Shown here: positions 18,951 through 44,907 of the stretch, piece by piece
Layout of the letters: every line of letters starts with the position of its first letter
Position numbering within the stretch: position 1 is the stretch's first letter
Origin: Sulfurimonas sp. HSL-3221
Lineage (GTDB): Bacteria; Campylobacterota; Campylobacteria; Campylobacterales; Sulfurimonadaceae
Reading direction: 5' to 3'
Length of the DNA stretch: 64,000 nucleotides
NCBI RefSeq assembly: GCF_021044585.1
Contig: NZ_CP087998.1
Location: 124,001-188,000 of the forward strand
The notes under the pieces: model-generated
What the model saw: the letters and a program-made list of their open reading frames with translations, nothing else
Told to the model about the DNA's origin: nothing
Database searches by the model: none
Made by a program: the position numbers and the translations under genes

Positions 18951-20297
18951 ATGAAAATAGCACGTTTTAGCCGAATAGGATTTATCCTTGCTGCCGCAGG
19001 GAGTGCGGTCGGGCTGGGCAATATCTGGAAATTCCCCTACATCACCGGGGAGTACGGCGGCGGTGCCTTCGTCATGGTCTATCTTTTTACCGTGATGCTC
19101 ATAGGGTTTTCGGTCATGATCGCCGAACTGCTTATCGGCTACCTCAGCCGCCGCGACACGCTGACGGCGTTCGAAGAGCTGGCCCCGCGGCACAAAGCTG
19201 CGTGGAAATGGGGCGGTTTCATGGCCTTTACCGGCCTGCTCATCATGACCTTCTACTCCGTGGTCATCGGCTGGATATTCAACTACATCTTTGTCTCGCT
19301 CGGTAATCTTCCCTCCTCGCCGGAGGAGGCCGCGGGGCTCTTTAAAACGATGCTGGGATCGGACCTCAAAACCCAGATTTTCTACCACACCCTTGCGTTT
19401 CTCATCATCACCGTCATCGTTATCCGCGGGATCAAGGGCGGTATCGAGAAGCTGAACCTTGTGCTGATGCCGATGCTTTTCCTCATTGTCGGCGGGATGT
19501 TCCTCTACGCGACGACCCAGGCTGGGTTTACTCAGGCGTGGAAGTTCATGTTCAGCGCCGACTGGAGCAAGCTCAATTCCGAGGCCTTCGTCACCGCCGT
19601 CGGGCACGCCTTTTTTACCCTCTCGCTCGGGATGGGTTCCCTGCTCACCTACTCGGCCTCCCTGCCCAAGGAGAGCAGCCTCGTCAAAAGCGCCCTCGTC
19701 GTCGTGGCGCTTGATACGGGCATTGCCCTGCTGGCGGGGCTGATGCTTTTTACCTTCCTCTACCAGTACGGTGCGGAACCCTCTGCCGGTCCGGGCCTCG
19801 TCTTCATCTCGCTGCCGGCGGTCTTTTACGAGATGGGGACGCTGGGCAACGTTTTTGCCGTGCTCTTTTTTATCTCCCTCGCCTTTGCGGGGCTTACCTC
19901 CGCCGTCTCCCTCGTCGAGCCGATGGTCCAGCTGGCAATAGACCGTTTCGGCTGGAGCCGTTTCAAGGCATCAGCGACGATGGGGCTCTTTTTCTACCTC
20001 GTGGGTATCGTTGTCATCTATTCGGGGAGCAGTGATTACGGCGCGCTGCTCACCTGGGGCGGCAAGAACCTTTTCGACTGGATCGACTACGTCACCGCGG
20101 CGATCCTGCTCCCCACGGGGGGGCTCGTTATGGCGATCTTTATCGGTTACGTCATCGAACCCAACCGCGTCGAAGCGGCGGTGAAGCATCAGCTGGGCTT
20201 TGCCTATGGCATCTGGCACTTCAGCCTGCGCTACGTCGCGCCGGTGGCGCTGGTCATCGTCATGCTGAATATGATGGGAATATTGAAGCTCAATTGA
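18951..20297 (+). CDS. neurotransmitter:sodium symporter (NSS/SNF) family transporter
   Basis: A 448-residue LeuT-fold inner-membrane symporter. The N-terminal FILAAAGSAVGLGNIWKFPY is the unwound TM1 sodium and substrate site, and YGGGAFVMVYL follows. About eleven to twelve membrane segments are visible to residue 445. The substrate is likely an amino acid, but cannot be specified. ATG 18951 is preferred to the adjacent TTG 18948 because AGGAA lies at a proper distance. It stands alone, divergent from the tRNA operon and convergent with ribE. Confidence 0.92.
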   Translation: MKIARFSRIGFILAAAGSAVGLGNIWKFPYITGEYGGGAFVMVYLFTVMLIGFSVMIAELLIGYLSRRDTLTAFEELAPRHKAAWKWGGFMAFTGLLIMTFYSVVIGWIFNYIFVSLGNLPSSPEEAAGLFKTMLGSDLKTQIFYHTLAFLIITVIVIRGIKGGIEKLNLVLMPMLFLIVGGMFLYATTQAGFTQAWKFMFSADWSKLNSEAFVTAVGHAFFTLSLGMGSLLTYSASLPKESSLVKSALVVVALDTGIALLAGLMLFTFLYQYGAEPSAGPGLVFISLPAVFYEMGTLGNVFAVLFFISLAFAGLTSAVSLVEPMVQLAIDRFGWSRFKASATMGLFFYLVGIVVIYSGSSDYGALLTWGGKNLFDWIDYVTAAILLPTGGLVMAIFIGYVIEPNRVEAAVKHQLGFAYGIWHFSLRYVAPVALVIVMLNMMGILKLN

Positions 20298-20313
20298 TTG
20301 TACGATATCCGAG

Positions 20314-20364
20314 CAAAGCCCGGATATCTACGTTAACACTGGGTTTCGCTCGGCGCGAGACCCA
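20314..20364. terminator. tandem hairpins between convergent genes
   Basis: GATATCCG (20314-20321) pairs with CGGATATC (20331-20338). A second ten-pair hairpin spans 20340-20364 (TGGGTTTCGC/GCGAGACCCA, one G-T pair, five-base loop). Placement between the ends of the NSS gene and ribE suggests bidirectional termination, although no long T-run adjoins the stems. Confidence 0.5.
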
Positions 20365-20416
20365 CGCGCAGTTAAACCGCGCTCGACTGTTTTGCAAATC
20401 AATTCATTATACGTAG

Positions 20417-21028
20417 TTAGTAAAGCGCCGTGAAGCGCTCGGCGGTTTCCCAGTCGAGTTTCGCATCCTTGTGCGAAAGGAAGTGGGCGATGTAGCGGGC
20501 GAACATATCCGTTTCGATATTCACCTTCGTACCGTTTCGGTAGCTGCCGAAGAGGGTTTCGCGCATCGTGATGGGGATGATGGTGAGACGGAAGCTGCTC
20601 TCATAAACGTCATTGACGGTGAGGCTGACGCCGTCGATGGCGATGGAACCCTTGGGAACGATGTAGGGGATGAACTTCTTGTCGACGTCGATGACGACGT
20701 CGTAGCTGTTGCCGTTGTCGCTGATGCTCTTGACGGTGCCGACGGTGTCCACGTGCCCCTGGACGATGTGCCCCTCCAGCCGGTCGCCAAACTGCATGGC
20801 CGGTTCGATATGCACGCGCCCTTTGAGGTTCTCGGTGGCGATGATCCCCTGTGTTTCGGGGGAGAGCTCGACGGTAAACCCGTCGCTCTCCAGGGAGACG
20901 ACGCTGAGGCAGGCGCCGTTGATGGCGATGGAGTCGCCGAGTTTCGGACGGTAGGCGGCCTTGAGGCTCAGGCGGTCCCCGCTGAACCGTTTTACCGTTG
21001 CCATCTCCCGAATCAACCCTGTGAACAT
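20417..21028 (-). CDS. ribE: riboflavin synthase, alpha subunit
   Basis: A 203-residue enzyme joining two 6,7-dimethyl-8-ribityllumazine molecules into riboflavin. It has the start MFTGLI and two lumazine-binding barrels: residues 1-90, with IAINGACLSVV, and 91-190, with GHIVQGHVDTVG and IAIDGVSLTVN. Length and motif order are normal. The ATG is directly followed by the invariant MFTG. Other rib genes are not in the window. Confidence 0.95.
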   Translation of the reverse strand: MFTGLIREMATVKRFSGDRLSLKAAYRPKLGDSIAINGACLSVVSLESDGFTVELSPETQGIIATENLKGRVHIEPAMQFGDRLEGHIVQGHVDTVGTVKSISDNGNSYDVVIDVDKKFIPYIVPKGSIAIDGVSLTVNDVYESSFRLTIIPITMRETLFGSYRNGTKVNIETDMFARYIAHFLSHKDAKLDWETAERFTALY

Positions 21029-21118
21029 CTCTATACCTTTTTGGTTTGCTAAACGCTCATTATATAGGAAAACAGGCGCGCTTTACCTGTTGTGAAGTCC
21101 GCCGCAGAGCGGCGGGGG

Positions 21119-21805
21119 TTAGAAAACAATCTTACCTTCGTCCTGCAGACCCTTGATGATCTCTTTGGCTTTTTCGTGACCGTTGTAGGCGGCTTTGCGG
21201 CACCACTCGAGCGCCTTGTCGTGGTCCTCTTCAACGCCGAGCCCCTGGTCGTAGAGGAGGCCGAGGTTGAACTGCGCCTGGGCCAGCCCCGCCTCCGCGG
21301 CGCGGGAGAAGCAGACGTAGGCGCGCCCGAAATCCTGGTGGACGCCGTGGCCCTCTTTGTAGAAGACGCCGAGGTTGTTGAAGGCTTCGCGGTGGCCGCG
21401 CTTGGCAGCCTCTTCATACCAGAATGCCGCTTCGGAGTAGTTCTGCACGCAGCCCAGTCCCCGTTCGAGCATCATCGCGGTCTCGTACATCGCCTGCGGG
21501 ACTTCGTGCACGGCGGCATCGAGGTAGTACTCGTGGGCTTTGAACTGGTCGTGTGCGACGCCGCCGAGGCCGTTGGCGTAGAGGATGGCGAGGTTGAAGA
21601 GCGCATAGGGCTGTTTCTGCTCGGCGGCTTTTTCGTACCATTTCAGCGCTGCGGCATCATCGACGGCCGTGCCCTGTCCCTGCTGGTACATATACCCCAG
21701 CGAGACCTGCGCATCCGCGTTCCCGGCTTCGGCGAGGTCGCTGTAGAGGGCGAAGGCGGTGGCAAAATCCTGTGCGTTGTAGGCGTTATGGGCTTCTTGA
21801 ATCAT
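21119..21805 (-). CDS. SEL1-like repeat protein
   Basis: 228 residues consisting of about six tandem 36-residue SEL1/TPR-like helical repeats (for example AQVSLGYMYQQGQG, ALFNLAILYANGLGG, AFNNLGVFYKEGHG, AQFNLGLLYDQGLG), each A-x-x-x-L-G-x-x-Y-x-x-G-x-G. Such proteins act as protein-binding scaffolds. There is no signal peptide, so it is likely cytosolic, unlike the secreted Cys-rich Hcp proteins of Helicobacter. ATG 21805 is preferred over TTG 21811. Partner unknown. Confidence 0.82.
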   Translation of the reverse strand: MIQEAHNAYNAQDFATAFALYSDLAEAGNADAQVSLGYMYQQGQGTAVDDAAALKWYEKAAEQKQPYALFNLAILYANGLGGVAHDQFKAHEYYLDAAVHEVPQAMYETAMMLERGLGCVQNYSEAAFWYEEAAKRGHREAFNNLGVFYKEGHGVHQDFGRAYVCFSRAAEAGLAQAQFNLGLLYDQGLGVEEDHDKALEWCRKAAYNGHEKAKEIIKGLQDEGKIVF

Positions 21806-21873
21806 GAACAAATCCCGGGAATTTTTCCGCGATTGTAGATTAAGGCGGTTTAAGGAGGGGTTAGTCCGGGGCG

Positions 21874-22071
21874 TTAACGCCGGACTTTACGGTTACCGCG
21901 GTTTTTTTCTTTGAGGCGGGTAATCACATCCTTGAGGCGCTCTTTTTCCGCCAGCAGATCGTCGCGGATCAGGTGCTCCTCACCGCCGTCCACTTCCGGG
22001 TCATACTCCACCACTTCGGGCTCGTAATCCTTGTAGGGGTCGTTTGGGGGTGTTTTATTTTCCTTGCTCAT
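21874..22071 (-). CDS. small conserved-type hypothetical protein
   Basis: A 65-residue, strongly charged protein: an acidic N-terminal half (YKDYEPEVVEYDPEVDGGEE) and a basic helical C-terminal half (LAEKERLKDVITRLKEKN) ending RKVRR. No Cys, no signal, probably cytosolic and partly disordered with a short coiled coil. Divergent from the lipoprotein gene. No family recognised. Confidence 0.55.
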   Translation of the reverse strand: MSKENKTPPNDPYKDYEPEVVEYDPEVDGGEEHLIRDDLLAEKERLKDVITRLKEKNRGNRKVRR

Positions 22072-22193
22072 AATTATTATTTTAAATGGCTTCGGCTTAG
22101 ATTCGCCAAAAACGTAAAGACTACAAATGTTTTTAACCGAAGGACGTTTCGCAAGGGGGCGTTTCCGTTCACGTTATGCTCACGTTTTTACAC

Positions 22194-22199
22194 TATACT
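22194..22199 (+). promoter_or_regulatory. -10 promoter box for the lipoprotein gene
   Basis: TATACT lies 18 bases before the ATG at 22218, so transcription would begin almost on the AAAGGAGA ribosome site (22206-22213), leaving a very short leader. Confidence 0.45.
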
Positions 22200-22217
22200 A
22201 CAGAGAAAGGAGATGCC

Positions 22218-22667
22218 ATGCGAAGTTTTCTCATCCTAGCGACGGCACTGATGCTCGTGCTCGGCGGCTGTGCCACCCGACAGGGGGCCGATTACGACGG
22301 CCGGACCTACCGGCAGGTGAAGCACTATCTTGTGGGCGTGGTGGTCGAGGAGCGGCCGGTACGGATCTCCGACGACGGTTCGGGGGCCTTTATCGGTGCA
22401 CTGATCGGAGCCATTTTCGGTTCGACCGTCGGCCGCGGACCCGGCCGGGGGATTGCGACGCTGGGCGGTGGATTGGCCGGCGCCTATGTCGGCGGCGCGG
22501 CGGGGCAGTCCAACGCCCAGGAGCTGACCGTGCGGCTCGACAGCGGGGAGCACATCGTCATCGTCGCCAAGGGCGAGCTGCGCTTCCTGCCCGGCGACCG
22601 CGTCAAGATCATCAAGCAGGGCAACACCGTCGAGCGGGTCGACCGCCTGCCGAACTATCCCTATTGA
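22218..22667 (+). CDS. glycine-zipper (SlyB-like) outer-membrane lipoprotein
   Basis: 149 residues. The signal peptide ends in lipobox LGGC with Cys18 as the lipidated residue. Residues ~57-98 hold a glycine-zipper hairpin (GAFIGALIGAIFGSTVG, then GGGLAGAYVGGAAGQ), as in SlyB/Pcp-type lipoproteins, followed by a beta-rich tail. AAAGGAGA at 22206-22213 fixes the start; an in-frame ATG at 22176 lacks such a site. Likely a structural envelope lipoprotein. Its stop overlaps that of the convergent Cys-rich gene by seven bases. Confidence 0.85.
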   Translation: MRSFLILATALMLVLGGCATRQGADYDGRTYRQVKHYLVGVVVEERPVRISDDGSGAFIGALIGAIFGSTVGRGPGRGIATLGGGLAGAYVGGAAGQSNAQELTVRLDSGEHIVIVAKGELRFLPGDRVKIIKQGNTVERVDRLPNYPY

Positions 22668-23092
22668 TCGCGGCGGCACGCTGCCATGATCCGCTCCCAC
22701 TCCGTATCGAACACCTTGTCGATATAGTCGCTGTGGTGGGGCACCGTACAGCCGGAGCAGTCCTGGTGTACGGCATCGCCGTACACCGCGGTTTTCCCGT
22801 CCTTTGAAGCGATCGCGCAGCTGCTATAGACCGTTTTGCCTTCACGCCTTTCCATCCCGGCATCGCTGAAGCGGAAATTGGGGCAGGCGCAGAGGTAGCA
22901 GTTGAGCTTTTCCATATCGTGACACTTCTTCTTTTCCGCGTAGAGCGGGCAAAACGCCGGCTCCGCTTCCACCATGTTGTCAAAATCGAAATAGTCGATG
23001 ATCTCCGCTTTGCCGAAGCCGCGGGCAAGCAGTTTCTCCACGATCTTTTTGTGCGCCGTGGCATGCGCTTCGAACCACGCCGTATAGGTCAT
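22661..23092 (-). CDS. cysteine-rich putative metal-binding protein
   Basis: 143 residues with nine cysteines. The core C48-P-L-Y...C57-H58...C65-x2-C68-x-C70-P fits the Cys-rich small domain (PF04071 / COG2158 type), a zinc-finger-like module that I recall in cobalamin-related proteins in some genomes (recollection, not checked). DCSGC near residue 113 could be an additional metal ligand pair. No signal peptide. It overlaps the upstream membrane-protein gene by four bases and is the last gene of the TonB-receptor operon. Confidence 0.65.
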   Translation of the reverse strand: MTYTAWFEAHATAHKKIVEKLLARGFGKAEIIDYFDFDNMVEAEPAFCPLYAEKKKCHDMEKLNCYLCACPNFRFSDAGMERREGKTVYSSCAIASKDGKTAVYGDAVHQDCSGCTVPHHSDYIDKVFDTEWERIMAACRRDQ

Positions 23093-23676
23093 AAGCCTCT
23101 CCTTTCGGCGGGATGGAACGCCCGGTAGAGATAGTAGATGACGACGATTTCCGCGACCAGCAGCACGTAGTGGACGAGGTAGACCTGTATTCGGCTTTCA
23201 TCGATGCCCGCGGTGTACTCCAACGTCTTGTAGAAGAGAAACGAGACGAGCATCCCGGCGAGGTAGCCCGCCTGCTTGTAGACGTCGAGGTAGGTCAGCG
23301 CTTTGGCTTTTTCGATCAGGATCGTCTCGGCGCGCACCAGGTAGGAGCCGAAGGCGAAGGTGAGCTGGTAGCCGGCATAGACGAAGAGCGCACTGGCGTA
23401 GCTGTACGAAAAGAGCAGGAAGTAAAGCACGAGCAGCAGCATGACGATTTCGACGGTGAGGGAGATGCGCCAGAACCAGGTCCGGTTGAGAATGCGGGTG
23501 TAAAAACGCGCAATAACGAGCATGGCCAGCGCCAGAAGGATCCCGCCGAGGGAGTAGACGTAGGGCTGCAGGGGCGCGTAGATGATAAAGATGCTCCCCA
23601 CCGAGATGCCCGTGAAGAGGGCGTTATAAAACTTGTACCAAATGAAAGGTCTCAGGGCGAGGTTGCGGGCCTGCAT
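23089..23676 (-). CDS. polytopic membrane protein, half-transporter-like
   Basis: 195 residues with about six membrane helices, for example SVGSIFIIYAPLQPYVYSL, GGILLALAMLVIARF and VEIVMLLLVLYFLLFSY. The pattern RPFIWYKFYNALFTG followed by an R-x-Y-x-R segment between helices 2 and 3 is reminiscent of one half of a major facilitator protein. It would need to dimerise to transport. Three bases separate it from the CobT-like gene upstream, so a role with corrinoid uptake is suggested by context only. Confidence 0.6.
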   Translation of the reverse strand: MQARNLALRPFIWYKFYNALFTGISVGSIFIIYAPLQPYVYSLGGILLALAMLVIARFYTRILNRTWFWRISLTVEIVMLLLVLYFLLFSYSYASALFVYAGYQLTFAFGSYLVRAETILIEKAKALTYLDVYKQAGYLAGMLVSFLFYKTLEYTAGIDESRIQVYLVHYVLLVAEIVVIYYLYRAFHPAERRGL

Positions 23677-23679
23677 CGG

Positions 23680-24435
23680 TTACGCCCCGCGCTCGGCCCG
23701 CGCAGTGATCTGCGCAATGGTCAGCCCCTGCATGGTGCCGTAGGCAAGGGCCGCGCCGGCGTAGGATTCCCCTTTGTCGTAAGAAGGGAGCTCCACGTAG
23801 AGGGTCCGCGGGCGGAAGTCGAGTTGCCCCAGCAGCGACAGCGTCACCGACCGTTCCGTTTCCGCGATCCCCTCGGCCGTGCAGAGGGTGAGCTTGCGCG
23901 GGTCCATCGGCAGGCCGTCGCGGCGCACGACCCGGTTGGCGATCAGCAGTGCCGCCGCCATTCTGCTTCCGCCGCCGAGGACGACGGGGAAGCGGCGGCA
24001 CGCCTCGAGCATGAAGCCCGCGGCGAACATCAGGAAACCGTCCGCCGTGCGGCCGAGCTGTTCGAAGAGCCCCATGCCGGGGAGCGGTTTGAGAAGGGCC
24101 GCGGCGTCCGCGGCCTCCGGGGAGACGCTTTCGCCAAGGATGACGTAATCGCCAGCAGGTTTGTAGTAGCGCCCGAATTCGCGCCCCTTTTCAAAAGATG
24201 CCTTTGCATTGAAGGCGCCTTGTGGGTCAATGCCGAAGGTCACGGTTCCGTACGTTTCCGATTCGGACGTAAGGCCCAGGTCGAGGATGCGCATGACGGC
24301 AAAAGGGGTGAGGGCCTCGACTGACAGGGTCAGCGGACCGGGGGCAGGCGTAACCGGGCCTGCCGCGGCCAGCAGGAAGTCGGCGCGTCCCGCAGGCAGC
24401 GCACTCTTCTCGCGGTCCTGCAGGGTACGGATCAT
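23680..24435 (-). CDS. CobT-like nicotinate-nucleotide phosphoribosyltransferase family protein
   Basis: 251 residues. FPVVLGGGSRMAAALLIANR near residues 149-168 and GESV near 102 resemble the CobT/TIGR00303 family, which activates lower-ligand bases during cobalamin nucleotide-loop assembly. The usual Gly-Gly-Thr-Thr-Thr stretch after GES is replaced by SPEAADAAAL, so catalysis may be altered or lost. It follows a BtuB-like receptor gene by two bases, supporting a corrinoid role. The family call is moderate; a profile search is the deciding test. Confidence 0.5.
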   Translation of the reverse strand: MIRTLQDREKSALPAGRADFLLAAAGPVTPAPGPLTLSVEALTPFAVMRILDLGLTSESETYGTVTFGIDPQGAFNAKASFEKGREFGRYYKPAGDYVILGESVSPEAADAAALLKPLPGMGLFEQLGRTADGFLMFAAGFMLEACRRFPVVLGGGSRMAAALLIANRVVRRDGLPMDPRKLTLCTAEGIAETERSVTLSLLGQLDFRPRTLYVELPSYDKGESYAGAALAYGTMQGLTIAQITARAERGA

Positions 24436-24437
24436 AT

Positions 24438-26396
24438 TTAGAACTTCAAGGTGGCGCCGACGAGGGCGGTGGTGGTGAAATTGACGGGGTAGATGGCGTC
24501 GTCTGCGACCCAGAGGCCGTTGGGATTATTGAACATGTTGTTGATTTTAGCAAAAAGTGCATAAGAGGCCGCGTCGTAGTTGAGGACGACATCGGTGCTG
24601 TTGAAGGCGCGTTGCTTCTGCGTATAGCTGTTGCCGAAGTCGTTCATGGCGTAGGCCTGGGATCGGTAGGTGTGCGAGAGGGTAAAGCTCAGCGCGTCCG
24701 TCGGCAGGATCGTGAGGGCCGCTTTCACGGTGTGGGGGCTGACGCCCGGAAGGTCGTTACCGCCGAAATCCTCGCCGTTCTGGACCTCTTTGTCGATAAT
24801 TGCCTGCACGTAGTTGTAGTTGAGCGAGAGGGCGAAGCGCTCGGTGACTTTCCACTGCTCGAAGAGGTCGACGCCGACCTTGTGGGAACGGTCGATATTC
24901 GTGTTGACCGAGGCGATGTACGCGGGGTCGCTGTAGTAATAGATCTCGTTTTTAAGCGCGGCGTAATAGGCGGAGAGCTTGAACTTGTTCGCTGCCGTCA
25001 CCGCCGTATAGCCCGCCGTGACGGTGTCGGAGGTCATCGGGTCGATAAAACCGTTAAAGGTGACGTTGCCGCTGAAATCCCTGTTGAAGAAGCGGTCGAC
25101 GTCGGGTGCCTGGTAGGCGTGGGCGTAGCTGACAAAGAGCGAACGTTCCGGGCTGAGACGGAAGTTGTAGCCCGCTTCGACGCCGTGAAGGGTTTCGGAG
25201 CGCGCGAGGGAGTTGTTCGCGTCGCTGTAGTCGTACTTGGCGGTCTCATAGCGGTAGCCCGCCTTGAGGGTATGGGCTCCCGCACGGTACTGGGCCAGCG
25301 CGTAGGCCGCGGCATTCTGCTTGGTCGTTTCGTTGGCGATCGCGAACGCCGTCGCGCCGCCGTTCCGGCTGCCGTCGAAGAGCGTGCCGCCGAGGGAGAG
25401 CTGCAGCCCGCCGTGTGTGTAGTCAAGGGCCAGCGCCGCCGTGCGGTAGTCGTAGGTGGCCGTGCTGCGGTAGAACCAGGCGGGGAGATCGTAGACGGAC
25501 TTTTTCTTCTCAACGGAGGTATCGAGCGAGACGGAGAGGTCGGCTGTCGGAAAGAGGGTCAGGCCGGTGCTGAAGGCATCGATGTCGTATTGCTGGTACG
25601 CCGGGGCCGGGAAGGCGCCTGGTTGGGCGGGATCGTCGTTGAACTCGCTTTGGGTCAGGGTGCTTCCGTAGGCGGCGTCGATGCGGCTTGACTGGGCGCC
25701 GAGGCGGAATTCGAAGAGATCGCTTGGCGTCAGCGCAAGATCGAAAGTGCCGTTTGCCAGTTTCTGTTCGTCCCGGTTCTGCGCCGCATCGATATGGCGC
25801 GTTCCGGCGGTGTGGTAGGCTTCTCCGGAGGCTGAAACCGTCAGAAGGTCGTCGCTGTGGCCGACACGGAACGCCGCATCGTAGGTGCCGTAAATGCCGC
25901 CGTAGAAACGTACCTCTTTGCTGCTGTCGTTCTTGGTGACGATGTGGATCGCCCCGGCGTTGGCGCCGTCGCCGCCGAGGACGATCCCGCCCCCTTTGAC
26001 GATCTCGAGGCGTTCGATGTCGGAGGGGGCGATGGCGCTGAGCAGTTGCGGGACCATGTCGACGTTGTTGAGGCGGCGGCCGTTGAGGGTGACGACGATG
26101 TTCTGGTAGCCGTTCTCGATGCCGTAGCCGTGGAGGTCGAGCCGCTGGGCCATCGGATTGCCGTAGGAGGGCAGGGCGAAGAGGGAGGTCTGCAGGGTGA
26201 TGAACTCGTAGAGCGACTGCACGTGGGCCTTTTCGATCTCCTCGGCGGTGTAGACCTCGACGCTGTCGGCGGCGTTGAGCTCGGTGCTGTGCAGGGGGCT
26301 GGAGATGACGGTCAGGGCTTCGAGGGTGATACCTTCGGCGCAAAGGGTGCCGCTCAACAGGGCGGTTGCGGCAAGGGAGAGTGCGATGGGTTTCAT
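24438..26396 (-). CDS. TonB-dependent outer-membrane receptor, BtuB-like
   Basis: 652 residues. A signal peptide ends at LCA near 20; a TonB-box-like LEALTVISSP follows; a plug domain spans about 40-155 (VEVYTAEEIEK, IVVTLNGRRLNNVD, IERLEIVKGGG, NAGAIHIVTKN) and a 22-strand barrel fills the rest, ending in the expected aromatic TTALVGATLKF. Length and plug fit BtuB/siderophore receptors; neighbours suggest cobalamin or related corrinoids. Its ATG overlaps the stop of the small upstream gene (ATGA), so translation is probably coupled. Confidence 0.85.
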   Translation of the reverse strand: MKPIALSLAATALLSGTLCAEGITLEALTVISSPLHSTELNAADSVEVYTAEEIEKAHVQSLYEFITLQTSLFALPSYGNPMAQRLDLHGYGIENGYQNIVVTLNGRRLNNVDMVPQLLSAIAPSDIERLEIVKGGGIVLGGDGANAGAIHIVTKNDSSKEVRFYGGIYGTYDAAFRVGHSDDLLTVSASGEAYHTAGTRHIDAAQNRDEQKLANGTFDLALTPSDLFEFRLGAQSSRIDAAYGSTLTQSEFNDDPAQPGAFPAPAYQQYDIDAFSTGLTLFPTADLSVSLDTSVEKKKSVYDLPAWFYRSTATYDYRTAALALDYTHGGLQLSLGGTLFDGSRNGGATAFAIANETTKQNAAAYALAQYRAGAHTLKAGYRYETAKYDYSDANNSLARSETLHGVEAGYNFRLSPERSLFVSYAHAYQAPDVDRFFNRDFSGNVTFNGFIDPMTSDTVTAGYTAVTAANKFKLSAYYAALKNEIYYYSDPAYIASVNTNIDRSHKVGVDLFEQWKVTERFALSLNYNYVQAIIDKEVQNGEDFGGNDLPGVSPHTVKAALTILPTDALSFTLSHTYRSQAYAMNDFGNSYTQKQRAFNSTDVVLNYDAASYALFAKINNMFNNPNGLWVADDAIYPVNFTTTALVGATLKF

Positions 26397-26770
26397 TGGG
26401 TTCCTTTGGAAATGGGTAATGGGGTTAAGTAGCAGGGCGCTGCGGGCGGCGAGAGGGTCGAACGGGTGTGGCGGAAGGGGTTGCGGGGGCGTCGCGGACG
26501 GTCATGCGTGCGCAGGCGTCTGCAGGCGAGGCGGTGAAAATGGAGGTTGCAGTGGCAGGGGCGGCGTCGGCCGCCGGGAAGCTCCGCCGCGGCGAGTTCC
26601 GGTGCAGCTTCCTCGTCTTCGAGACCCTTTTCGTCGTCGCTTTCGTCGCTGACCATACCGTGGTGCGCCAGGGTACGGTTCTCATGGCGCTGCAGGGTGG
26701 TGACGGCACTGTAGGCCTGGATGGCGCTGAGCGTAAAGTAGCGTTTTCCGAACCCTCTCGGTGCGCGCAT
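26393..26770 (-). CDS. uncharacterised leader gene of the TonB-receptor operon
   Basis: 125 residues behind a perfect AAGGAGG (minus strand, just upstream of the ATG at 26770) and ending in a four-base ATGA overlap with the receptor gene; both signs argue that it is translated. Residues 1-40 are mixed, about 39-62 are acidic (SDESDDEKGLEDEEAAPE), and the rest is rich in Arg, His, Cys and Pro (RRRPCHCNLHFHRLACRR). No membrane segment, no family known. A second frame in the distal half is also open, so a frameshift cannot be excluded. Confidence 0.5.
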   Translation of the reverse strand: MRAPRGFGKRYFTLSAIQAYSAVTTLQRHENRTLAHHGMVSDESDDEKGLEDEEAAPELAAAELPGGRRRPCHCNLHFHRLACRRLRTHDRPRRPRNPFRHTRSTLSPPAAPCYLTPLPISKGTQ

Positions 26771-26793
26771 CCGGCCTCCTTGAATGAATATCG

Positions 26794-26799
26794 GAAGTA
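26794..26799 (-). promoter_or_regulatory. -10 promoter box of the five-gene TonB-receptor operon
   Basis: TATACT (minus strand), preceded by GTGC, lies 23 bases upstream of the ATG at 26770. The 116 bases between this operon and the MotA-like gene hold both divergent promoters; I see no gene and no B12-box-like riboswitch there. Confidence 0.5.
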
Positions 26800-26886
26800 T
26801 AGCACAGGGCGCGCTCGGCGTGCCCGATGTGCAGGTTTCTTAGATGATTTAGGATAGTATGGCCCAAACGCATCCGGGAGTGGGAA

Positions 26887-28191
26887 ATGGTTATTGAAGA
26901 GGATCTCGCGGCGCTGTCCCAGCGCTTTAATCGCCACACTGTCTGCGGTATCCGCCTGTTCTGGCTGATGTCGCTGCCGCTGCTGCTCTGGCTCTTCGCC
27001 ATGGCGGGGTTTGCGGGGCTTGTCAACTTCAAGGTTGAAGCGCACAGTGTCATTATGATGGGGGCCATCTTCCTGATCTGGCTCTTTTTCGCCCCGCACA
27101 ACGCCTTCTACGCCTCGTGCAAGCTCCGGCGGGGTTTCAGCGGTATCCAGCGGGCGCTGGCGGCCTTCATCAACAAGAACATCCTCGCCGTCGCCGGGAC
27201 AGAGAAGGCGAATGCGACGCTGGATGATTTCCTGGCCGAGTCTGCGGGGACGATACGCAACGAGAACTTCTCCTCCGTGGCCGCCGGGATCTTCCCGACG
27301 CTGGGGATCCTGGGGACCTTTATCAGCATCGCCATCTCGATGCCCGACTTTTCCGCCCAGACCTCCGAAGTGCTTGAGCAGGAGATCTCCCGGCTGCTCG
27401 GCGGGGTGGGGACGGCCTTTTACGTCTCCATTTACGGTATCTTCCTCTCCATCTGGTGGATCTTTTTCGAAAAGAGCGGCATCAGCCGCTTCGAACGGGA
27501 CGTGGCGGAGATCCGCGAGGTGACGCGCCCCTTCTTCTGGGAGAAAACGGAAATGGAGCAGACCTACTACCGCCAGAGCCTGGCCCATTTCGAGAAGCTC
27601 GACACGCTCTTCGACGCGATGGCTTCGCGCGATTTCGTTGCGGAGGTGAACCGTACCCTGGAGCAGCGCCTGCACATTTTCGGCCAGATCATCGACCGGG
27701 AGCAGCAGGCGGCGGAAACCTTCGGGCAGCTGATGGCGCAGAGCGGTACGCTGTTCGACCGCCTTGCCAAAGAGCAGACCGCTTCGGCGGAGGCGCTGCA
27801 GCGCGTCGGCCTGGGGGTCGAGCGCTTTGCGGCGCAGATGCGCGAAGAGCATGAGCGGATGGAGCAGCGCCAGCACACCCTGGCCCGGGAGTATCAGCAC
27901 GGTGTGACCGTCGCGGAGACCCTGGGCGGCGAGATTGCGCGGCTCAGCGAGGCGCTGGCCAACCTTAACGCCGGCAACGTCCGGGAGCTTTACAGCGGAG
28001 TGCTCTCCAACATCGAATCGATGAAACAGGAGATCGACCGGGTCGGTGTGCAGTTTGATGAGCATATCCGCGGCTTCGATGCGCAGTTCCTGGAGAAACT
28101 GCAGCGTACCCTGAAGCTGATCGATTCGGAGACGGCCCAGATCGTCGAGCAGATTGCCCGGCTGAACAAAAGCGACGGGGAGACGCGCTGA
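26887..28191 (+). CDS. MotA/TolQ/ExbB-type proton channel protein with long coiled-coil tail (ZorA-like)
   Basis: 434 residues. Four membrane segments: about 23-45, 56-75, 133-155 (FPTLGILGTFISIAISM) and 174-196 (VGTAFYVSIYGIFLSIWWIFF), the last two being the conserved TolQ/MotA core. The remaining ~235 residues form a long cytoplasmic coiled coil, as in ZorA-like stators. It should assemble as a pentamer around a MotB-like dimer and use proton flow. Three bases before the partner gene. Target of the force is unknown. Confidence 0.75.
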   Translation: MVIEEDLAALSQRFNRHTVCGIRLFWLMSLPLLLWLFAMAGFAGLVNFKVEAHSVIMMGAIFLIWLFFAPHNAFYASCKLRRGFSGIQRALAAFINKNILAVAGTEKANATLDDFLAESAGTIRNENFSSVAAGIFPTLGILGTFISIAISMPDFSAQTSEVLEQEISRLLGGVGTAFYVSIYGIFLSIWWIFFEKSGISRFERDVAEIREVTRPFFWEKTEMEQTYYRQSLAHFEKLDTLFDAMASRDFVAEVNRTLEQRLHIFGQIIDREQQAAETFGQLMAQSGTLFDRLAKEQTASAEALQRVGLGVERFAAQMREEHERMEQRQHTLAREYQHGVTVAETLGGEIARLSEALANLNAGNVRELYSGVLSNIESMKQEIDRVGVQFDEHIRGFDAQFLEKLQRTLKLIDSETAQIVEQIARLNKSDGETR

Positions 28192-28193
28192 GC

Positions 28194-29348
28194 ATGCTGC
28201 GGCGACGGGACAACGGCGAGCGGGAACAGAACTTCTGGATCTCCTATGCCGACCTGATGGCGGGGCTGCTCTTCGTCTTTATCCTGCTGGTGGGAGCGAT
28301 CGTCGTCAAAACAGTATTGATGCGTTCGGATCTTTTCGCGATCCGCGCAGACCTGCAGGCGCAGAAAACGGCGCTCGGGCTAAGCGAGAAGGCGCTCTCC
28401 GAGAAGAAAAAGCGGCTGCGAGAGATCCAGGCACTGCTGGCCGCCTCTCGGGAGGCGAACGCCCACCTCAGCATGGAACTGGCCCTGCTGCAGAGCGAAG
28501 CGGAGGGGCTGAGGCTCTCTGTAGATGATTTGAATACGACCCTGCATGAGCGGACAACCGCACTGGCGCTGACCCGCGGGGAGATGGAGCAGCTCAAAGC
28601 CCTGCTGCTGGAGACGGAGACGCAAAGAGCTACTTTGCAAAGCGAGGCGGAGCGGCTCGCTTCTGAGCTGGAGACGGCCGAGAAACAGCATGCCGAAGAC
28701 ACGAACCTGATCAAACTGCGCGACGACGAGATGGCAGAGCTGGAGAAGGCGCTGCTGTTGAAAAAACGCGCCTACCAGAAGGTGGTGGAGGATCTGAACC
28801 TCACCCGCATCAAGATCAAGAACCTCACGGGGATCAAGGTCAAGGTCGTACAGCATCTCAAAGAGGAGCTGGGCGATTCGATCAGCATCGACCCCAAGAG
28901 CGGTTCGCTTCGCTTTGCGTCGAACGTGCTTTTCAACCAGGGGGAGGCGACGCTCAAACCCGAAGCGAAGCAGGAACTGAGCCGGGTGCTGGGGCAGTAC
29001 ATCGACGCCCTGCTCAGCGACAAGCAGATGCGGCGCTATATTGACCGGATCATCATTGAGGGGCATACGAACTCCGACGGCAGCTACCTTTTCAACCTGG
29101 AGCTCTCCCAGCAGCGTGCCCTGGCGGTGATGACCTTCCTCTACACTCAGTACCCGCAGAACCGGAAGCTTTTCCGGCAGTACCTGAGCGCGAGCGGCCG
29201 CAGTTTCACCGAGCCGGTGCTGGGGACGAACGGCAAAGAGGACAAGCAGGCATCGCGCCGCATCGAGATCAAGTTCCGCATCAAGAACGAAGAAGCAGTA
29301 AGGGAGCTGATGAACTACCTCAACGCGCAGGGGGACGGCGGTGCGTGA
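28194..29348 (+). CDS. MotB/OmpA-family stator partner protein (ZorB-like)
   Basis: 384 residues. WISYADLMAGLLFVFILLVG has one membrane helix with Asp20 at the site of the proton-carrying Asp of MotB. A charged coiled coil spans about 45-205, followed by an OmpA-like peptidoglycan-binding domain (about 230-370) with FNQGEATLKPEAKQEL, IIEGHTNSDG and the LSQQRALAVMTFL helix. Pairs with the upstream MotA-like protein. The coiled coil between helix and OmpA domain is unusually long, so the anchor can reach far into the periplasm. It overlaps the next small gene by eight bases. Confidence 0.78.
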   Translation: MLRRRDNGEREQNFWISYADLMAGLLFVFILLVGAIVVKTVLMRSDLFAIRADLQAQKTALGLSEKALSEKKKRLREIQALLAASREANAHLSMELALLQSEAEGLRLSVDDLNTTLHERTTALALTRGEMEQLKALLLETETQRATLQSEAERLASELETAEKQHAEDTNLIKLRDDEMAELEKALLLKKRAYQKVVEDLNLTRIKIKNLTGIKVKVVQHLKEELGDSISIDPKSGSLRFASNVLFNQGEATLKPEAKQELSRVLGQYIDALLSDKQMRRYIDRIIIEGHTNSDGSYLFNLELSQQRALAVMTFLYTQYPQNRKLFRQYLSASGRSFTEPVLGTNGKEDKQASRRIEIKFRIKNEEAVRELMNYLNAQGDGGA

Positions 29349-29487
29349 CGAAGAGCTGCTGGTCCGGCCCGAGAAGCTCGAAGCCCTGCGCAAAGAGCTG
29401 ACGCTGCAGGCCGAACGCCGCGAACGCATGCGCAAAGTCCTTGACCCGGCACGGAAAAAACCGTGGTGGCGGCGCCTCTTCTTCTAA
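29341..29487 (+). CDS. 48-residue basic protein downstream of the stator pair
   Basis: A short frame starting at GTG inside the end of the MotB-like gene and ending TAA 29485-29487. It reads as a charged helix (VRDEELLVRPEKLEALRKEL) followed by Arg/Lys-rich sequence ending KKPWWRRLFF, which would suit a membrane-surface amphipathic helix. It has no Cys and no known family. Overlap with the stator gene suggests co-translation. It is easily missed by automated callers. Confidence 0.5.
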   Translation: MRDEELLVRPEKLEALRKELTLQAERRERMRKVLDPARKKPWWRRLFF

Positions 29488-29499
29488 CGCCCCCTGCGC

Positions 29500-29505
29500 T
29501 ATAAT
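29500..29505 (+). promoter_or_regulatory. -10 promoter box for the NFACT gene
   Basis: TATAAT ends only seven bases before ATG 29513, so transcripts would be nearly leaderless, or the gene may be served mainly by read-through from the stator operon. Confidence 0.4.
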
Positions 29506-29512
29506 GCGCCCT

Positions 29513-30859
29513 ATGAAACTCTCCCACCTGCGCCAGATCGCCGAGTACCTTCAGGCCTTCAAACATATCAATGCCATCCACCGTGTGAATGACACGACGA
29601 TCAAGGTCGTCCTGGGGGAGAAGAGCCTCTATGCCAACATGCAAAAGGGCCACAGCTACCTGGCGATGTGCCGCCACGACATCCGGCGCAGCAAGGTCTA
29701 CCAGGCCCCCTTTGACGTCGTGCTGGCCAAGCGGTTCAACCGCGCCGTCATCACGGACATTTCGCTCTACAACGACGACAAGATCCTTCGTATCGAAGCG
29801 GCGCTCAGCGGAGCGTACAAGCACTCCAAGACCGTCCTGCAACTCGAATTCACCGGCAAAACGACCAACGCGATCATCCTCGATGAGGATGAGGTCGTCC
29901 TCGAGGCGCTGCGCCACATCGATGCATCCACCTCCTACCGGGTCGTGCGCGTCGGCCAGCCCCTGCTGCCGCCCCCGCCCCTGGAGTTCACGCCGAAGGA
30001 GTACCCCCTCGATGACGTGGAGGCTTACCTCTACGAAGTGTGCGACCGGGAGCAGGCGGCGCGGCTGGCGGCGCTCAAGCAGCAAAAAGTCGGCCTGCTG
30101 CACAAAAAACTCCGACGGCTCGAAAAGCACCTCGAAGTCCTTGAAGACGAAGCGGCGCTGGAGGCGGAGGCGGCACGATTGCAGCACCTGGGCAACCTTG
30201 CCCTGGCCAACCTCTACAAGATCAAGCCCTACCAGACGCGTCTCACGCTGGACGACTACGACGGCAGCCCCGTTGAAGTCGAGCTTCCGCGCGCTTTCGC
30301 CTCCGCCCACCAGGTGAGCGACCACTTTTTCAAGCTGGCGAAGAAGACGAAGCAGAAGGCGGCGAACATGCATATCGAGCGCGAAGGGCTGGAAGGGAAA
30401 GTCAGCCACTTCGAGCACTTTATCGCGACGGTCGAGGGGGCGGCGACGGTCGAAGAGATCGCCCGCCTCTTCCCGCCGAAGCAGACGGGACGCACCAAAG
30501 AGAAGAGCGACGATGCGGTCGAGACCTTCTGGATTGAGGGGTACAAGGTGCAGCTGGGCAAGAACGAACGGGGCAATATCGCGCTGCTGCAGCGCGCCCG
30601 GGCCAGGGACATCTGGCTTCACCTGCGCGACCGTCCCTCGACCCACGTCATCATCACGACGGACAAGCAAAAGGTGCCCGAGAGCGTCCTGGAGGCGGCG
30701 GCAAAGCTCTGCGTCGATTTCTCGGTAATGAGCCCAGGGGTATTCGAGGTCGATTACACCCCGAGACGCGAGGTGAAGATCCAGGAGGGGGCGAACGTGC
30801 TTTACAACAAGTACGAGACGATGACCGTCTCCAAACAGGCCGCTGCTCCCGGGTCATAG
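29513..30859 (+). CDS. NFACT family protein, RqcH-like ribosome quality control factor
   Basis: 448 residues. NFACT-N occupies about 1-160 (MKLSHLRQIAEYLQ), a helical coiled-coil region about 175-325, and NFACT-R about 345-430, where DIWLHLRDRPSTHVII is the signature. Homologs bind obstructed large ribosomal subunits with peptidyl-tRNA and direct Ala tailing. The start ATG 29513 begins at the domain; extension upstream has no ribosome site. Its exact role outside Firmicutes is inferred from homology. Confidence 0.78.
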   Translation: MKLSHLRQIAEYLQAFKHINAIHRVNDTTIKVVLGEKSLYANMQKGHSYLAMCRHDIRRSKVYQAPFDVVLAKRFNRAVITDISLYNDDKILRIEAALSGAYKHSKTVLQLEFTGKTTNAIILDEDEVVLEALRHIDASTSYRVVRVGQPLLPPPPLEFTPKEYPLDDVEAYLYEVCDREQAARLAALKQQKVGLLHKKLRRLEKHLEVLEDEAALEAEAARLQHLGNLALANLYKIKPYQTRLTLDDYDGSPVEVELPRAFASAHQVSDHFFKLAKKTKQKAANMHIEREGLEGKVSHFEHFIATVEGAATVEEIARLFPPKQTGRTKEKSDDAVETFWIEGYKVQLGKNERGNIALLQRARARDIWLHLRDRPSTHVIITTDKQKVPESVLEAAAKLCVDFSVMSPGVFEVDYTPRREVKIQEGANVLYNKYETMTVSKQAAAPGS

Positions 30860-41415: not shown

Positions 41416-44400
41416 CTACACGTTATAGTATGTCGCTTCCTTGTGGTGGATGACGATGGCTGACGTCGACTGCTCCGGATGGATCTGGTAGGTTTCGCTC
41501 AGTTCAATCCCGAACTCCTCCGGTTTCAGCAGGTCGAAGAGCGGGCGGTTGAGCTCCAGGTCCGGGCAGGCGGGGTAGCCGAAGCTGTAGCGCGCTCCCT
41601 GGTAGCGGTTCATGCGGACATCGGCGAGGGTCGGCCCTTCATTGTCGGCGATATTGAGATCGAGCCGGATCTGCTTGTGGGCAATCTCGGCAAGGGCCTC
41701 GGCCAGCTCCACCCCCAGACCATGTACCTGGTAGTATTCATTGTATTTCCCCGCATCATAGAGCTCTTTTTCATAGGTACTCAGACGGCTGCCGGCGCTG
41801 ACGCAGGAGAGTGCCACGACGTCATGGCGGTCATGGCGGAAGAAGTCGCTGAGTGCGCGGTGGGGCTGTTTGCGCTGGCGTGGGAAGGTAAAGGCGCATT
41901 CGGCATCACCGATGATCTGTTCCAGCGGTTCGCGACTGGCGTCAGCATCGCGGTGCCACCCCTCCGTTTCCGGGAAAACAAGCAGGGTGTTGTCATCGGA
42001 ACGGGCCGGCCAGTAGCCATAGAGGATGGTCGGTTCAAAGAGGCCTTCGTCCAGGAAGAGCGCCTTGAGCTTTTCGTAAGCCGGCCAGACAAGCTCGTCG
42101 AGCTGTTTCTCGTAGGCATCTTTCTTCATGCCCTTTGAACTGTATCCCCAGCGCTGTTTGAAGAGGATCTTGTGGTTGATCCACTCGAATGCCATCGCCT
42201 TCTGCGCTTCGGTCAGCTTCAGCTCACGCCGCCCCCAGAAGGGCGGTGTCGGTACGCGGACGTCCCGCGAGGGCATTTTCAGCTCCTTAAACGGCGGGAT
42301 GACGACCTCTTTCTTCTCGGCCTGCTCGGCGACTTCCGGGGCATTCGGGTGGAGGTCGGTGTCCAGGTTGCCCGCTTCGATGCGGCTCATCGCCGTGACG
42401 CCGTCAAAAGCGTCTTTGCAGTAGAAGATCGGGCCGTCGTAGCTGGGGCGGCAGAAATCCTCGATAAAACTGCGTGTGAGCGCCGCACCGCCCAGCAGAA
42501 TGGGAACGGTGATCCCCGCCGCTTTCAGCGCCTCGAGGTTCTCTTTCATCACCTGGGTCGATTTGACGAGCAGGCCGCTCATGCCGATGGCACTGGCACT
42601 GCTCTCTTGTAGGGTTTTGACGAAGTTGTCCAGTTCGACCTTGATCCCGAGGTTGATCACCTTGTAGCCGTTGTTGGTGAGGATGATGTCGACGAGGTTC
42701 TTGCCGACGTCGTGTACGTCCCCTTTGACGGTACCCAGCACGAGGGTTGTGTCGACGGCCTTGTCGACTTTTGGCAGGTAGGGGTTGAGGTGGTCGACGG
42801 CAGTTTTCATCGTTTCGGCGCTCTGCAGCACGAAGGGGAGCTGCATCTGTCCCGAACCGAAGAGCTCGCCGACGACTTTCATGGCGTCAATGAGAATTTC
42901 GTTGACGATCTTTTCCGGGGCGATTTCGCTCCTTGCCTCCTCGACAAGAGGGATCATCCGCTCCTTGTCACCGTCGAGCAGGAGCTTCGCGATCTTCTCT
43001 TCGGTCGAGAGTGCGTTGTAGGCTTCATCCTCCGCGGCACTGTCGACGGCCTCTCTGTTGCCGAAATGGTCGATGAAATCGAACAGTGACTGTCCCTCCG
43101 GTTTCTTGTCGAAGAGGAGGTTCTCGCACGCTTCGAGGTCCTCGTCACTGATCTTCGCCATCGGGATGATGTGCTTGACGTTGATGATGACGGAGGTGAG
43201 CCCCGCTTCGATACAGTGGTGCAGGAAAACGGAGTTAAGGTAGGGTCGGGCGTCCTTGTCCAGGCCGAACGAGATATTCGAAAGCCCCAGGATCGCCCCG
43301 ACCTCCGGATGGCGGGTGCGGAGTTCGCGGATCGCCTCGATCGTCTGGACGGCCGCATCGCGGTACTCTTCGTCCCCACTGCCCACGGTAAAGGTAAGAA
43401 CGTCGAAGACGAGGTCCTCGGGGTTGAGCCCGTGCTTCTCGGTAGCCAGGGTGTAGATACGTTCGGCGACCTCGAGTTTGCGCTCGACCGTTTTGGCCAT
43501 CCCCTCTTCGTCGATCGTCAGACAGACGAGGGCAGCCCCGTATTTTTTCGCCAGCGAACAGACGGTATCAAACTTCTCGATCCCGTCTTCGAGGTTGACG
43601 GAGTTGATGATCGGCTTGCCACCGATCAGCTTGAGCGCTTCTTCGAGTGCCGGGGTCTGGGTGGAGTCGGGCATCAGCGGCAGCGGGATCTTCTGGGCGT
43701 AGAGGCCCATCACCTTGTTCATGTCCTTTGTTTCGTCGCGGCCGGCGAAACCGACGGAAACGTCGAGGACGTGGGCCCCGGCCCGTACCTGCTGCTGACC
43801 GACGCTGAGCGTCCCTTCATAGTCCTCATCGAGGAGGAGTTCCCGGAACGCTTTGGAGCCGGTGGCGTTGGAGCGTTCGCCAACCAGCAGCGGGGCGGGC
43901 TCCTGCATCAGCGGAACGGCGTTGAAGAGCGAGGCGAGCGAGGTCGGCTGGGAACCGGAGGGCGCCTTGGGTGCAGTGGCGTGCACCCGCTCACAGAGCG
44001 CTTTGATATGCTGCGGCGTCGTCCCGCAGCAGCCACCGAGGAAACTGACGCCGTCATAAGAGAGGAAGCTCTCCTGACGGTCGGCGAACTCGTCGGGCCC
44101 CATCGGGTAGTAGGTGTAGCCGCCGCGGTTCTGCGGAAGGCCGGCATTGGCATGGATGGAAATGGGTTTGCCCCAGACGTCGCTTAAGGCCTTGACATGT
44201 TTGGTGTACTGTTCCGGGCCGGTCCCGCAGTTGAAGCCCAGCGAGAGGATGTCAAAGGGTTCCATGATGACAGCGAGGGTCTGGGCATCGGTACCGATAA
44301 GCATGGTACCGGCCAGTTCGATCGTGCCAGAGACCATGACGGGGAGGTCGGTGCCGCGCGACGCGTTGGCCGCCTCGCAGGCGTGCAGGGCCGCCTTGAT

Positions 44401-44907
44401 CTGCAGCGGATCCTGGCAGGTCTCGAGCAGGAACACGTCGCAGCCGCCGTCAATGAGCCCCTGGGCACACTCAGTGTAGCCTTCAAGCATCTCGTCGTAG
44501 TGGATGTGTCCCAGCGAGGGGAGTTTCGTGCCCGGACCGATGGAACCCAGCACATAGCGCGGGTGCTCCGGGGTGCTGAAGGTGTCGCACACCTCTTTGA
44601 CGCGCTGCGCCCCGGCCTTGGAGAGCTCATAGGCGCGGTGCCCGATGCCGTACTCGTCCAGGACCCATGAGAAGGCGCCGAAGGTGTTGGTGGTGATCAT
44701 GTCGGCACCGGCGTTCAGGTAGGCGTGGAAGATGTCGCGCATGATCTCGGGAGCGGTGACGTTGAGCAGTTCGTTGCACCCCTCATTGCCTTCCCATGCC
44801 GCTTCGGGGATCTGCTCATGGCGCTGTTGCAGCTGCGTACCCATGGCGCCGTCAATGATAAGCGGCCGCCGTTTGATGGTTTCTAAAATGGCGTTTTTTA
44901 CGGACAT
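41416..44907 (-). CDS. metH: cobalamin-dependent methionine synthase
   Basis: 1163 residues in the standard order: homocysteine-binding barrel (about 1-320; zinc Cys in LGFNCGTGPEQ near 224 and GGCCGTTPQH near 290), methyl-tetrahydrofolate barrel (about 335-600), cobalamin cap and Rossmann module (about 630-860; cobalt-ligand motif GDVHDVGKN near 728-736), and the C-terminal SAM-dependent reactivation domain (about 905-1163, with RYSFGYPACPDLE). Complete. It needs corrinoid, which fits the TonB-receptor operon at 22661-26770. No B12 riboswitch is evident in the short 5' leader. Confidence 0.96.
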   Translation of the reverse strand: MSVKNAILETIKRRPLIIDGAMGTQLQQRHEQIPEAAWEGNEGCNELLNVTAPEIMRDIFHAYLNAGADMITTNTFGAFSWVLDEYGIGHRAYELSKAGAQRVKEVCDTFSTPEHPRYVLGSIGPGTKLPSLGHIHYDEMLEGYTECAQGLIDGGCDVFLLETCQDPLQIKAALHACEAANASRGTDLPVMVSGTIELAGTMLIGTDAQTLAVIMEPFDILSLGFNCGTGPEQYTKHVKALSDVWGKPISIHANAGLPQNRGGYTYYPMGPDEFADRQESFLSYDGVSFLGGCCGTTPQHIKALCERVHATAPKAPSGSQPTSLASLFNAVPLMQEPAPLLVGERSNATGSKAFRELLLDEDYEGTLSVGQQQVRAGAHVLDVSVGFAGRDETKDMNKVMGLYAQKIPLPLMPDSTQTPALEEALKLIGGKPIINSVNLEDGIEKFDTVCSLAKKYGAALVCLTIDEEGMAKTVERKLEVAERIYTLATEKHGLNPEDLVFDVLTFTVGSGDEEYRDAAVQTIEAIRELRTRHPEVGAILGLSNISFGLDKDARPYLNSVFLHHCIEAGLTSVIINVKHIIPMAKISDEDLEACENLLFDKKPEGQSLFDFIDHFGNREAVDSAAEDEAYNALSTEEKIAKLLLDGDKERMIPLVEEARSEIAPEKIVNEILIDAMKVVGELFGSGQMQLPFVLQSAETMKTAVDHLNPYLPKVDKAVDTTLVLGTVKGDVHDVGKNLVDIILTNNGYKVINLGIKVELDNFVKTLQESSASAIGMSGLLVKSTQVMKENLEALKAAGITVPILLGGAALTRSFIEDFCRPSYDGPIFYCKDAFDGVTAMSRIEAGNLDTDLHPNAPEVAEQAEKKEVVIPPFKELKMPSRDVRVPTPPFWGRRELKLTEAQKAMAFEWINHKILFKQRWGYSSKGMKKDAYEKQLDELVWPAYEKLKALFLDEGLFEPTILYGYWPARSDDNTLLVFPETEGWHRDADASREPLEQIIGDAECAFTFPRQRKQPHRALSDFFRHDRHDVVALSCVSAGSRLSTYEKELYDAGKYNEYYQVHGLGVELAEALAEIAHKQIRLDLNIADNEGPTLADVRMNRYQGARYSFGYPACPDLELNRPLFDLLKPEEFGIELSETYQIHPEQSTSAIVIHHKEATYYNV

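Follow-up and report, generated by a model that had tools for sequence, protein, structure and literature searches.

The 64,000-nucleotide window analyzed here (positions 124,001 to 188,000 of contig NZ_CP087998.1, from the complete, 2.52 Mb genome of Sulfurimonas sp. HSL-3221) contains in its 22661-26799 region five minus-strand open reading frames (ORFs), which we consider as a probable operon for the uptake of vitamin B12. In the order of transcription, these encode a KGF-type leader peptide, p125 (26393..26770; identified as an ORF and with the leader profile A3 described below), a TonB-dependent receptor whose lineage is linked to corrinoids and lies apart from the clade of E. coli BtuB (24438..26396; assigned from profiles and a tree), a shrunken CobT-like protein of 251 residues versus about 350 (23680..24435; from alignment and profile), a six-helix inner-membrane protein that is a candidate corrinoid importer with the predicted fold of half a major facilitator superfamily (MFS) carrier (23089..23676), and a Cys-rich protein with weak similarity to PF04071, linked to B12-using genomes (22661..23092). 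All of these ORFs were found as a previous sequence-only reading had stated, with spacings of 2-4 bases. The p125 stop and the receptor start share 4 bases (ATGA), gaps of 2 and 3 bases precede the CobT-like and the six-helix gene, respectively, and the six-helix and Cys-rich genes overlap by 4 bases. The Shine-Dalgarno (SD) sequence of p125, AAGGAGG, lies at 26775-26781 and its Pro-Pro codons at 26444-26449. The motif TATACT (26796..26801, minus strand; read by eye, with TG one base upstream) is a possible extended -10 element and, judging from the letters, a plausible operon promoter; it was absent from the output of a consensus promoter scan, which demands a -35 match, and none is present there. 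The MetH that had been placed at 41416-44907 contains a MetH activation domain (G000:C1:165419-166153).

A genome of the same genus, G265, retains all five genes with 85-95% identity (83% for p125). The ratio of nonsynonymous to synonymous substitutions (dN/dS) in this comparison was 0.08 for the six-helix protein, 0.11 for the receptor, 0.20 for the Cys-rich protein and 0.33 for both p125 and the CobT-like protein. Locus L089, with a TonB receptor that is 91% identical, has no CobT-like gene, and its receptor adjoins the six-helix gene. The conserved unit therefore consists of the leader, the receptor and the six-helix protein, often also with the Cys-rich protein, and the conserved gene order that had been expected for the whole operon holds for the first three of these but not for the CobT-like gene.

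The receptor scored 58.7 bits with the BtuB profile TIGR01779, below the equivalog cut-off of 599.7. In a receptor tree, its lineage formed a separate group (100/100) that includes a receptor encoded beside BtuFDC genes in G125. The tree showed no grouping of the receptor with CirA, FepA or PqqU, the kind of outcome that would have spoken against the earlier reading, but its lineage stands apart from E. coli BtuB as well. A second receptor lineage, which occupies the same position in the operon, does group with BtuB (96/92), so that two unrelated receptor lineages pair with the six-helix protein. From this context we infer that the receptor of the window is specific for corrinoids.

The six-helix protein had no Pfam family at E<1, and no Pfam MFS match. 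Of the 149 genomes from the order, on which all distribution counts below are based, 62 encode a single copy of it. The neighborhood of its gene was assessed in the best 80 of 296 stretches retrieved by a profile scan, most of them from Campylobacterota, with further ones from Persephonella and from records that bear Flavobacteriales names; L147, L152 and L156 were left out because of greedy gene calls, and the window locus, in which such calls miss the six-helix gene, was handled by its coordinates. Of the named loci, 74 had a gene upstream; this gene encoded a TonB receptor in 49, GAPDH in 11 and various proteins in 14, of which three were CobA/CobO. Within a distance of five genes, 12 of 77 loci had MetH and 5 of 77 had CobA/CobO, these neighbor clusters being named by Pfam on one representative each. 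In the GAPDH-linked records, which bear Flavobacteriales or Bacteroidetes names (L092, L100, L103, L104, L118, L123, L124, L134, L135, L161 and L164), the six-helix gene follows the GAPDH gene, its product is about 50-60% identical and no TonB receptor lies beside it, which suggests a transfer into a new context.

MetH was present in 97 of the 149 genomes, CobS in 27 and a strong FecCD match in 58, "strong" referring to our own cut of E<1e-30 and weaker matches being taken as ABC-3 relatives. The six-helix protein was found in 45 of the 49 genomes with MetH and neither CobS nor a strong FecCD, in 9 of the 22 with MetH and FecCD and no CobS, in 4 of the 26 with both MetH and CobS, and in 4 of the 52 without MetH. 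A tree of 46 FecCD rows, from which those of G076 and G107 (both with MetH and CobS) and of genomes without MetH were left out, was split by a 100/100 branch, with the BtuC references linked to B12 clusters on one side. No row from any genome bearing the six-helix protein fell on this BtuC side; the 12 genomes that have both FecCD and the six-helix protein contributed 18 rows, every one of which was located off it. This includes the FecCD of Sulfurimonas sp. HSL-3221, whose tree position rules it out as BtuC. A BtuC-side row was present in all 13 genomes with MetH and FecCD that lacked both CobS and the six-helix protein. Taken with the MetH and CobS counts, the tree therefore divides the 71 genomes with MetH and without CobS into 54 that have the six-helix protein, 13 that have a BtuC-clade permease, none that has both and 4 that have neither. 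Because of this partition, the six-helix protein most likely replaces BtuCDF, and would itself act as the transporter. These data support two earlier proposals, namely that the operon serves corrinoid uptake and that a small membrane protein takes the place of BtuCDF. Both import solutions occur within the same families (f1, f6, f7 and f9), suggesting that the six-helix protein and BtuC have been exchanged repeatedly within families; species are not independent events in this respect.

An AlphaFold2 model of the 195-residue protein, based on 70 aligned sequences, comprised six helices (predicted local distance difference test score 93.3; predicted template modeling score 0.88). The first 50 rows of a Foldseek search were MFS-type carriers, mostly with a probability above 0.9 and with TM-scores over the query of 0.42-0.60. 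The 50 rows listed by VIA-align, MFS-type carriers too, had Z-scores of 15.7 to 13.3 and 165-193 of the 195 residues aligned, mostly over a single half of the carrier; for reference, the best Z for helical models without a clear match was 14, falling to 6 (13 at most) by rank 50. Unlike MFS carriers, which have two halves and 12 helices in a single chain, the protein has six helices in 195 residues and would correspond to one half, a predicted fold that agrees with the earlier wording "half-transporter". The distribution of charges, evaluated by eye, places loops 2-3 and 4-5 and both termini in the cytoplasm. Two copies could therefore pair in parallel, like the halves of MFS carriers, and the protein probably works as a homodimer.

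The first gene of the operon had been left unassigned by the sequence-only reading, which missed that it encodes a leader peptide also found before metE and cbiM. p125 is no chance ORF, since it is conserved in G265 and in L089 (dN/dS 0.22 in the latter), and it aligns with leaders that precede the receptor in related operons (30 aligned rows). The family starts with KGF..YFxLxxI, and G6, Y11, F12, I17 and both C-terminal prolines are invariant in all 30 rows. Short leaders of about 50-62 residues (MKHLKGFxxRYFSLAIIAMYSTLHKL...YHKxAF...KTSPP), which lack a PCHC motif, account for 18 of the 30 rows; long leaders have about 110 residues, with an acidic stretch and PCHC. Purifying selection was observed across the family, with a dN/dS of 0.06-0.49 in 15 pairs; dS was saturated in two more pairs. 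This family of leader peptides is not known to have been described before. A literature search, mostly of open-access texts, yielded no report of such a leader peptide or of a half-size MFS-type B12 importer.

The profile A3, made solely from receptor-linked rows, matched 116 places in 86 of the 149 genomes. Seventy-two of these were free-standing leaders, which preceded metE in 42 cases, a TonB receptor in 20 and cbiM in 7, the latter all in genomes with CobS; two had none of these behind them (a gene in G011; a contig end) and one was without sequence. In the other 44, the leader start was continuous with a long ORF; 14 of these ORFs proved to be TonB receptors, and the remaining 30 were not retrieved. 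The genome of Sulfurimonas sp. HSL-3221 has a second leader, which ends 58 bases upstream of the gene for a 783-residue MetE. A leader was present in 81 of the 97 genomes with MetH and in 5 of the 52 without; among 200 genomes drawn from the phylum, 59 had a leader match, all in the same order. In other genomes, the receptor carries the leader start as its own signal peptide. Thus, in L039, L040, L041, L043, L044, L045, L049, L154 and L163, KGFxxKYFSLAAI is the receptor signal peptide and replaces the free-standing leader; these sequences are unusually conserved for signal peptides. The gene behind the G011 leader (G011:C114:815-979; L298) encodes a putative substrate-binding protein, and this leader may mark another B12-regulated transporter.

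The metE gene, which encodes the B12-independent methionine synthase, is classically repressed by B12, and elsewhere B12 uptake, metE and cobalt uptake are the targets of the cobalamin riboswitch. The leaders thus share their target set (B12 receptor, metE and cobalt uptake) with this riboswitch, from which they differ by being translated, conserved peptides. The riboswitch itself (RF00174) was found in none of the 149 genomes, versus 8 of 14 controls. We considered the possibility that a cobalamin riboswitch underlies p125, the strand at this place reading CCTGCCACTGCAA, which resembles the riboswitch core. Yet Rfam gave no match in window 20000-30000 and, per site, synonymous changes prevail; we therefore rejected this candidate and conclude that the strand codes for a peptide.

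In several leaders (e.g. those of G147, G125 and G141), the sequence that immediately follows the Pro-Pro codons shows complementarity to the ribosome-binding site of the next gene. When this arm was compared with shuffled arms, p<0.05 was obtained for 12 of 42 metE leaders, 5 of 39 TonB leaders and none of 7 cbiM leaders; combined p-values, from rows that are related, were 4e-6, 2e-5 and 0.53, respectively. These findings suggest that anti-SD arms mediate translational attenuation in some of the leaders. As a general rule, RNA stems downstream of the leader were rejected, since z-scores were mixed and pairing with the ribosome-binding site was confined to this subset. Because p125 overlaps the receptor gene and the metE leader of the same genome shows no significant pairing, translational coupling or transcription termination is possible at these two places. 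In the mechanism that we consider most likely, the nascent leader would sense B12 status and halt translation at the Pro-Pro near its C-terminus; a ribosome stopped there would alter access to the ribosome-binding site of the next gene, covering the anti-SD arm and so freeing the site. In PMC9973294, a nascent peptide with a signal sequence and C-terminal prolines (CutF/CruR, DUF2946) is described as controlling the next gene in response to copper. The leaders resemble it in their signal-like start, their C-terminal prolines and their placement directly upstream, and the long ones also in having a Cys motif. In contrast, their targets are B12-related, the short forms have no Cys motif, and membership of DUF2946 was ruled out, as none of 30 leaders matched its Pfam profile.

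The CobT-like protein scored 26.4 bits with TIGR00303 (cut-off 240). A central segment of about 80 residues aligns with CobT and the core around VVLGGGSRMAAALLIA is kept, but in an alignment with three relatives GESTPSGTTT, KEGVGAGAAL and other conserved segments were missing or altered. CobT enzymes have a catalytic Glu. The protein is, from these losses, probably not a working phosphoribosyltransferase, and we propose that its gene is a lineage-specific, eroded add-on. A first search with this protein over the genome contigs found no relative. Shrunken CobT-like proteins were also observed in other Sulfurimonas records (L093:11164-11892, 242 residues; L109:16479-17285, 268 residues), which look independent and have lost much the same segments. 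The modification of the lower ligand that had been suggested for this operon finds no support, the genome having neither CobS nor a PF02277 CobT. The Cys-rich protein was present in 51 of the 149 genomes, including 26 of the 27 with CobS and 1 of the 52 without MetH; it scored 20.3 bits with PF04071 (gathering score 27), over profile positions 45-71 of 82. A paper on the Sulfurospirillum multivorans corrinoid cluster mentions unassigned Cys-rich proteins of 8 and 10 kDa (PMC4585668). Divergent genes for MotA/ExbB-like and OmpA-like proteins lie beside the operon promoter (window 26887-29348).

We consider it likely that these genes form a B12 uptake operon, with a six-helix importer that replaces BtuCDF and a leader peptide that responds to B12. 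The corrinoid, for use by MetH, would pass the outer membrane through the receptor and the inner membrane through the six-helix protein, the latter acting as a homodimer of one MFS half; the Cys-rich protein would be an accessory, and p125 would set the expression of the operon. Several observations weigh against this reading. Every Foldseek E-value was above 0.001, and no sequence link with MFS carriers was found via Pfam or PDB sequences, nor with hhalign, a test so weak that even MFS N-terminal halves set against C-terminal halves gave no more than 6.5%. Four genomes with MetH and without CobS have neither importer (G001, G017, G058 and G094), the genomes are related, so that the counts are not independent events, and in the 11 Flavobacteriales-type loci GAPDH, rather than a receptor, lies ahead of the six-helix gene. 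As for the leader, it was not detected in 16 of the 97 genomes with MetH, and in G011 it sits before an unrelated-looking gene. Anti-SD pairing is missing in most leaders, including all 7 before cbiM; its p-value was 0.417 for the metE leader of Sulfurimonas sp. HSL-3221, and p125 falls outside the test since it overlaps the receptor gene.

Could the six-helix protein be an accessory, for instance for assembling or energizing the receptor, while another permease imports B12? Six helices alone are unusually small for an MFS-type unit, and the transport role is a prediction. Yet, none of the 71 genomes with MetH and without CobS has both the six-helix protein and a BtuC-clade permease, 67 have exactly one of them, and the protein pairs with two unrelated receptor lineages, so that we regard an accessory role as improbable. 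The operon also differs from BtuCDF, with which it would share the role, by containing no ATPase or binding protein, and no similarity of the six-helix protein to FecCD was found. Alternatively, the six-helix protein could be a solitary transporter like BtuM, which resembles the S-components of energy-coupling factor (ECF) carriers. As described in PMC6072759, BtuM shares with the protein studied here the size of about 22 kDa, the six helices, the probably cytoplasmic location of both ends and a gene placed beside that of a B12 receptor, where BtuCDF is lacking. According to the same paper, BtuM has an invariant Cys, whereas in the 70 six-helix sequences no column that is invariant or nearly so holds a Cys. 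Furthermore, the predicted fold is that of half an MFS carrier and not of an ECF S-component, the structure-search rows listed were MFS-type carriers, and the lineages are different; a BtuM-like transporter therefore seems improbable to us. ECF S-components were not among the Foldseek and VIA-align rows listed, an absence that carries no weight.

Concerning the leader, its signal could be cobalt, zinc or copper rather than B12, as copper is for CutF/CruR (PMC9973294); PCHC would bind the metal in the long leaders, the signal sequence and C-terminal prolines would be those of the same architecture, and cbiM is a cobalt carrier. We find this unlikely, since 18 of the 30 rows of the A3 profile are short leaders without PCHC and since the leader tracks MetH. 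In addition, its commonest partner (42 of 72) is metE, the classical target of repression by B12. Alternatively, p125 could be an ordinary small exported protein, such as a periplasmic chaperone for corrinoids or metals, and no regulator, as its signal-like start, shared with receptor signal peptides in other genomes, would allow. This has little probability in our eyes: the leader lies directly before three different B12-related genes, its Pro-Pro near the end is invariant, and short forms of about 52 residues have no mature domain.

A regulatory leader sensing B12 would do by means of a peptide what the cobalamin riboswitch, absent from these genomes, does by means of RNA. It is possible, if somewhat less likely than not, that Campylobacterota have a whole B12 regulon in which such a leader takes the place of the riboswitch, and that many of them use a homodimeric half-MFS importer, a living example of the presumed ancestral half of MFS carriers. 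At the level of the order, the six-helix protein is a single-gene importer candidate for 54 of the 71 genomes with MetH and without CobS, and the leader family is a candidate for the control of B12 genes in a group without cobalamin riboswitches.
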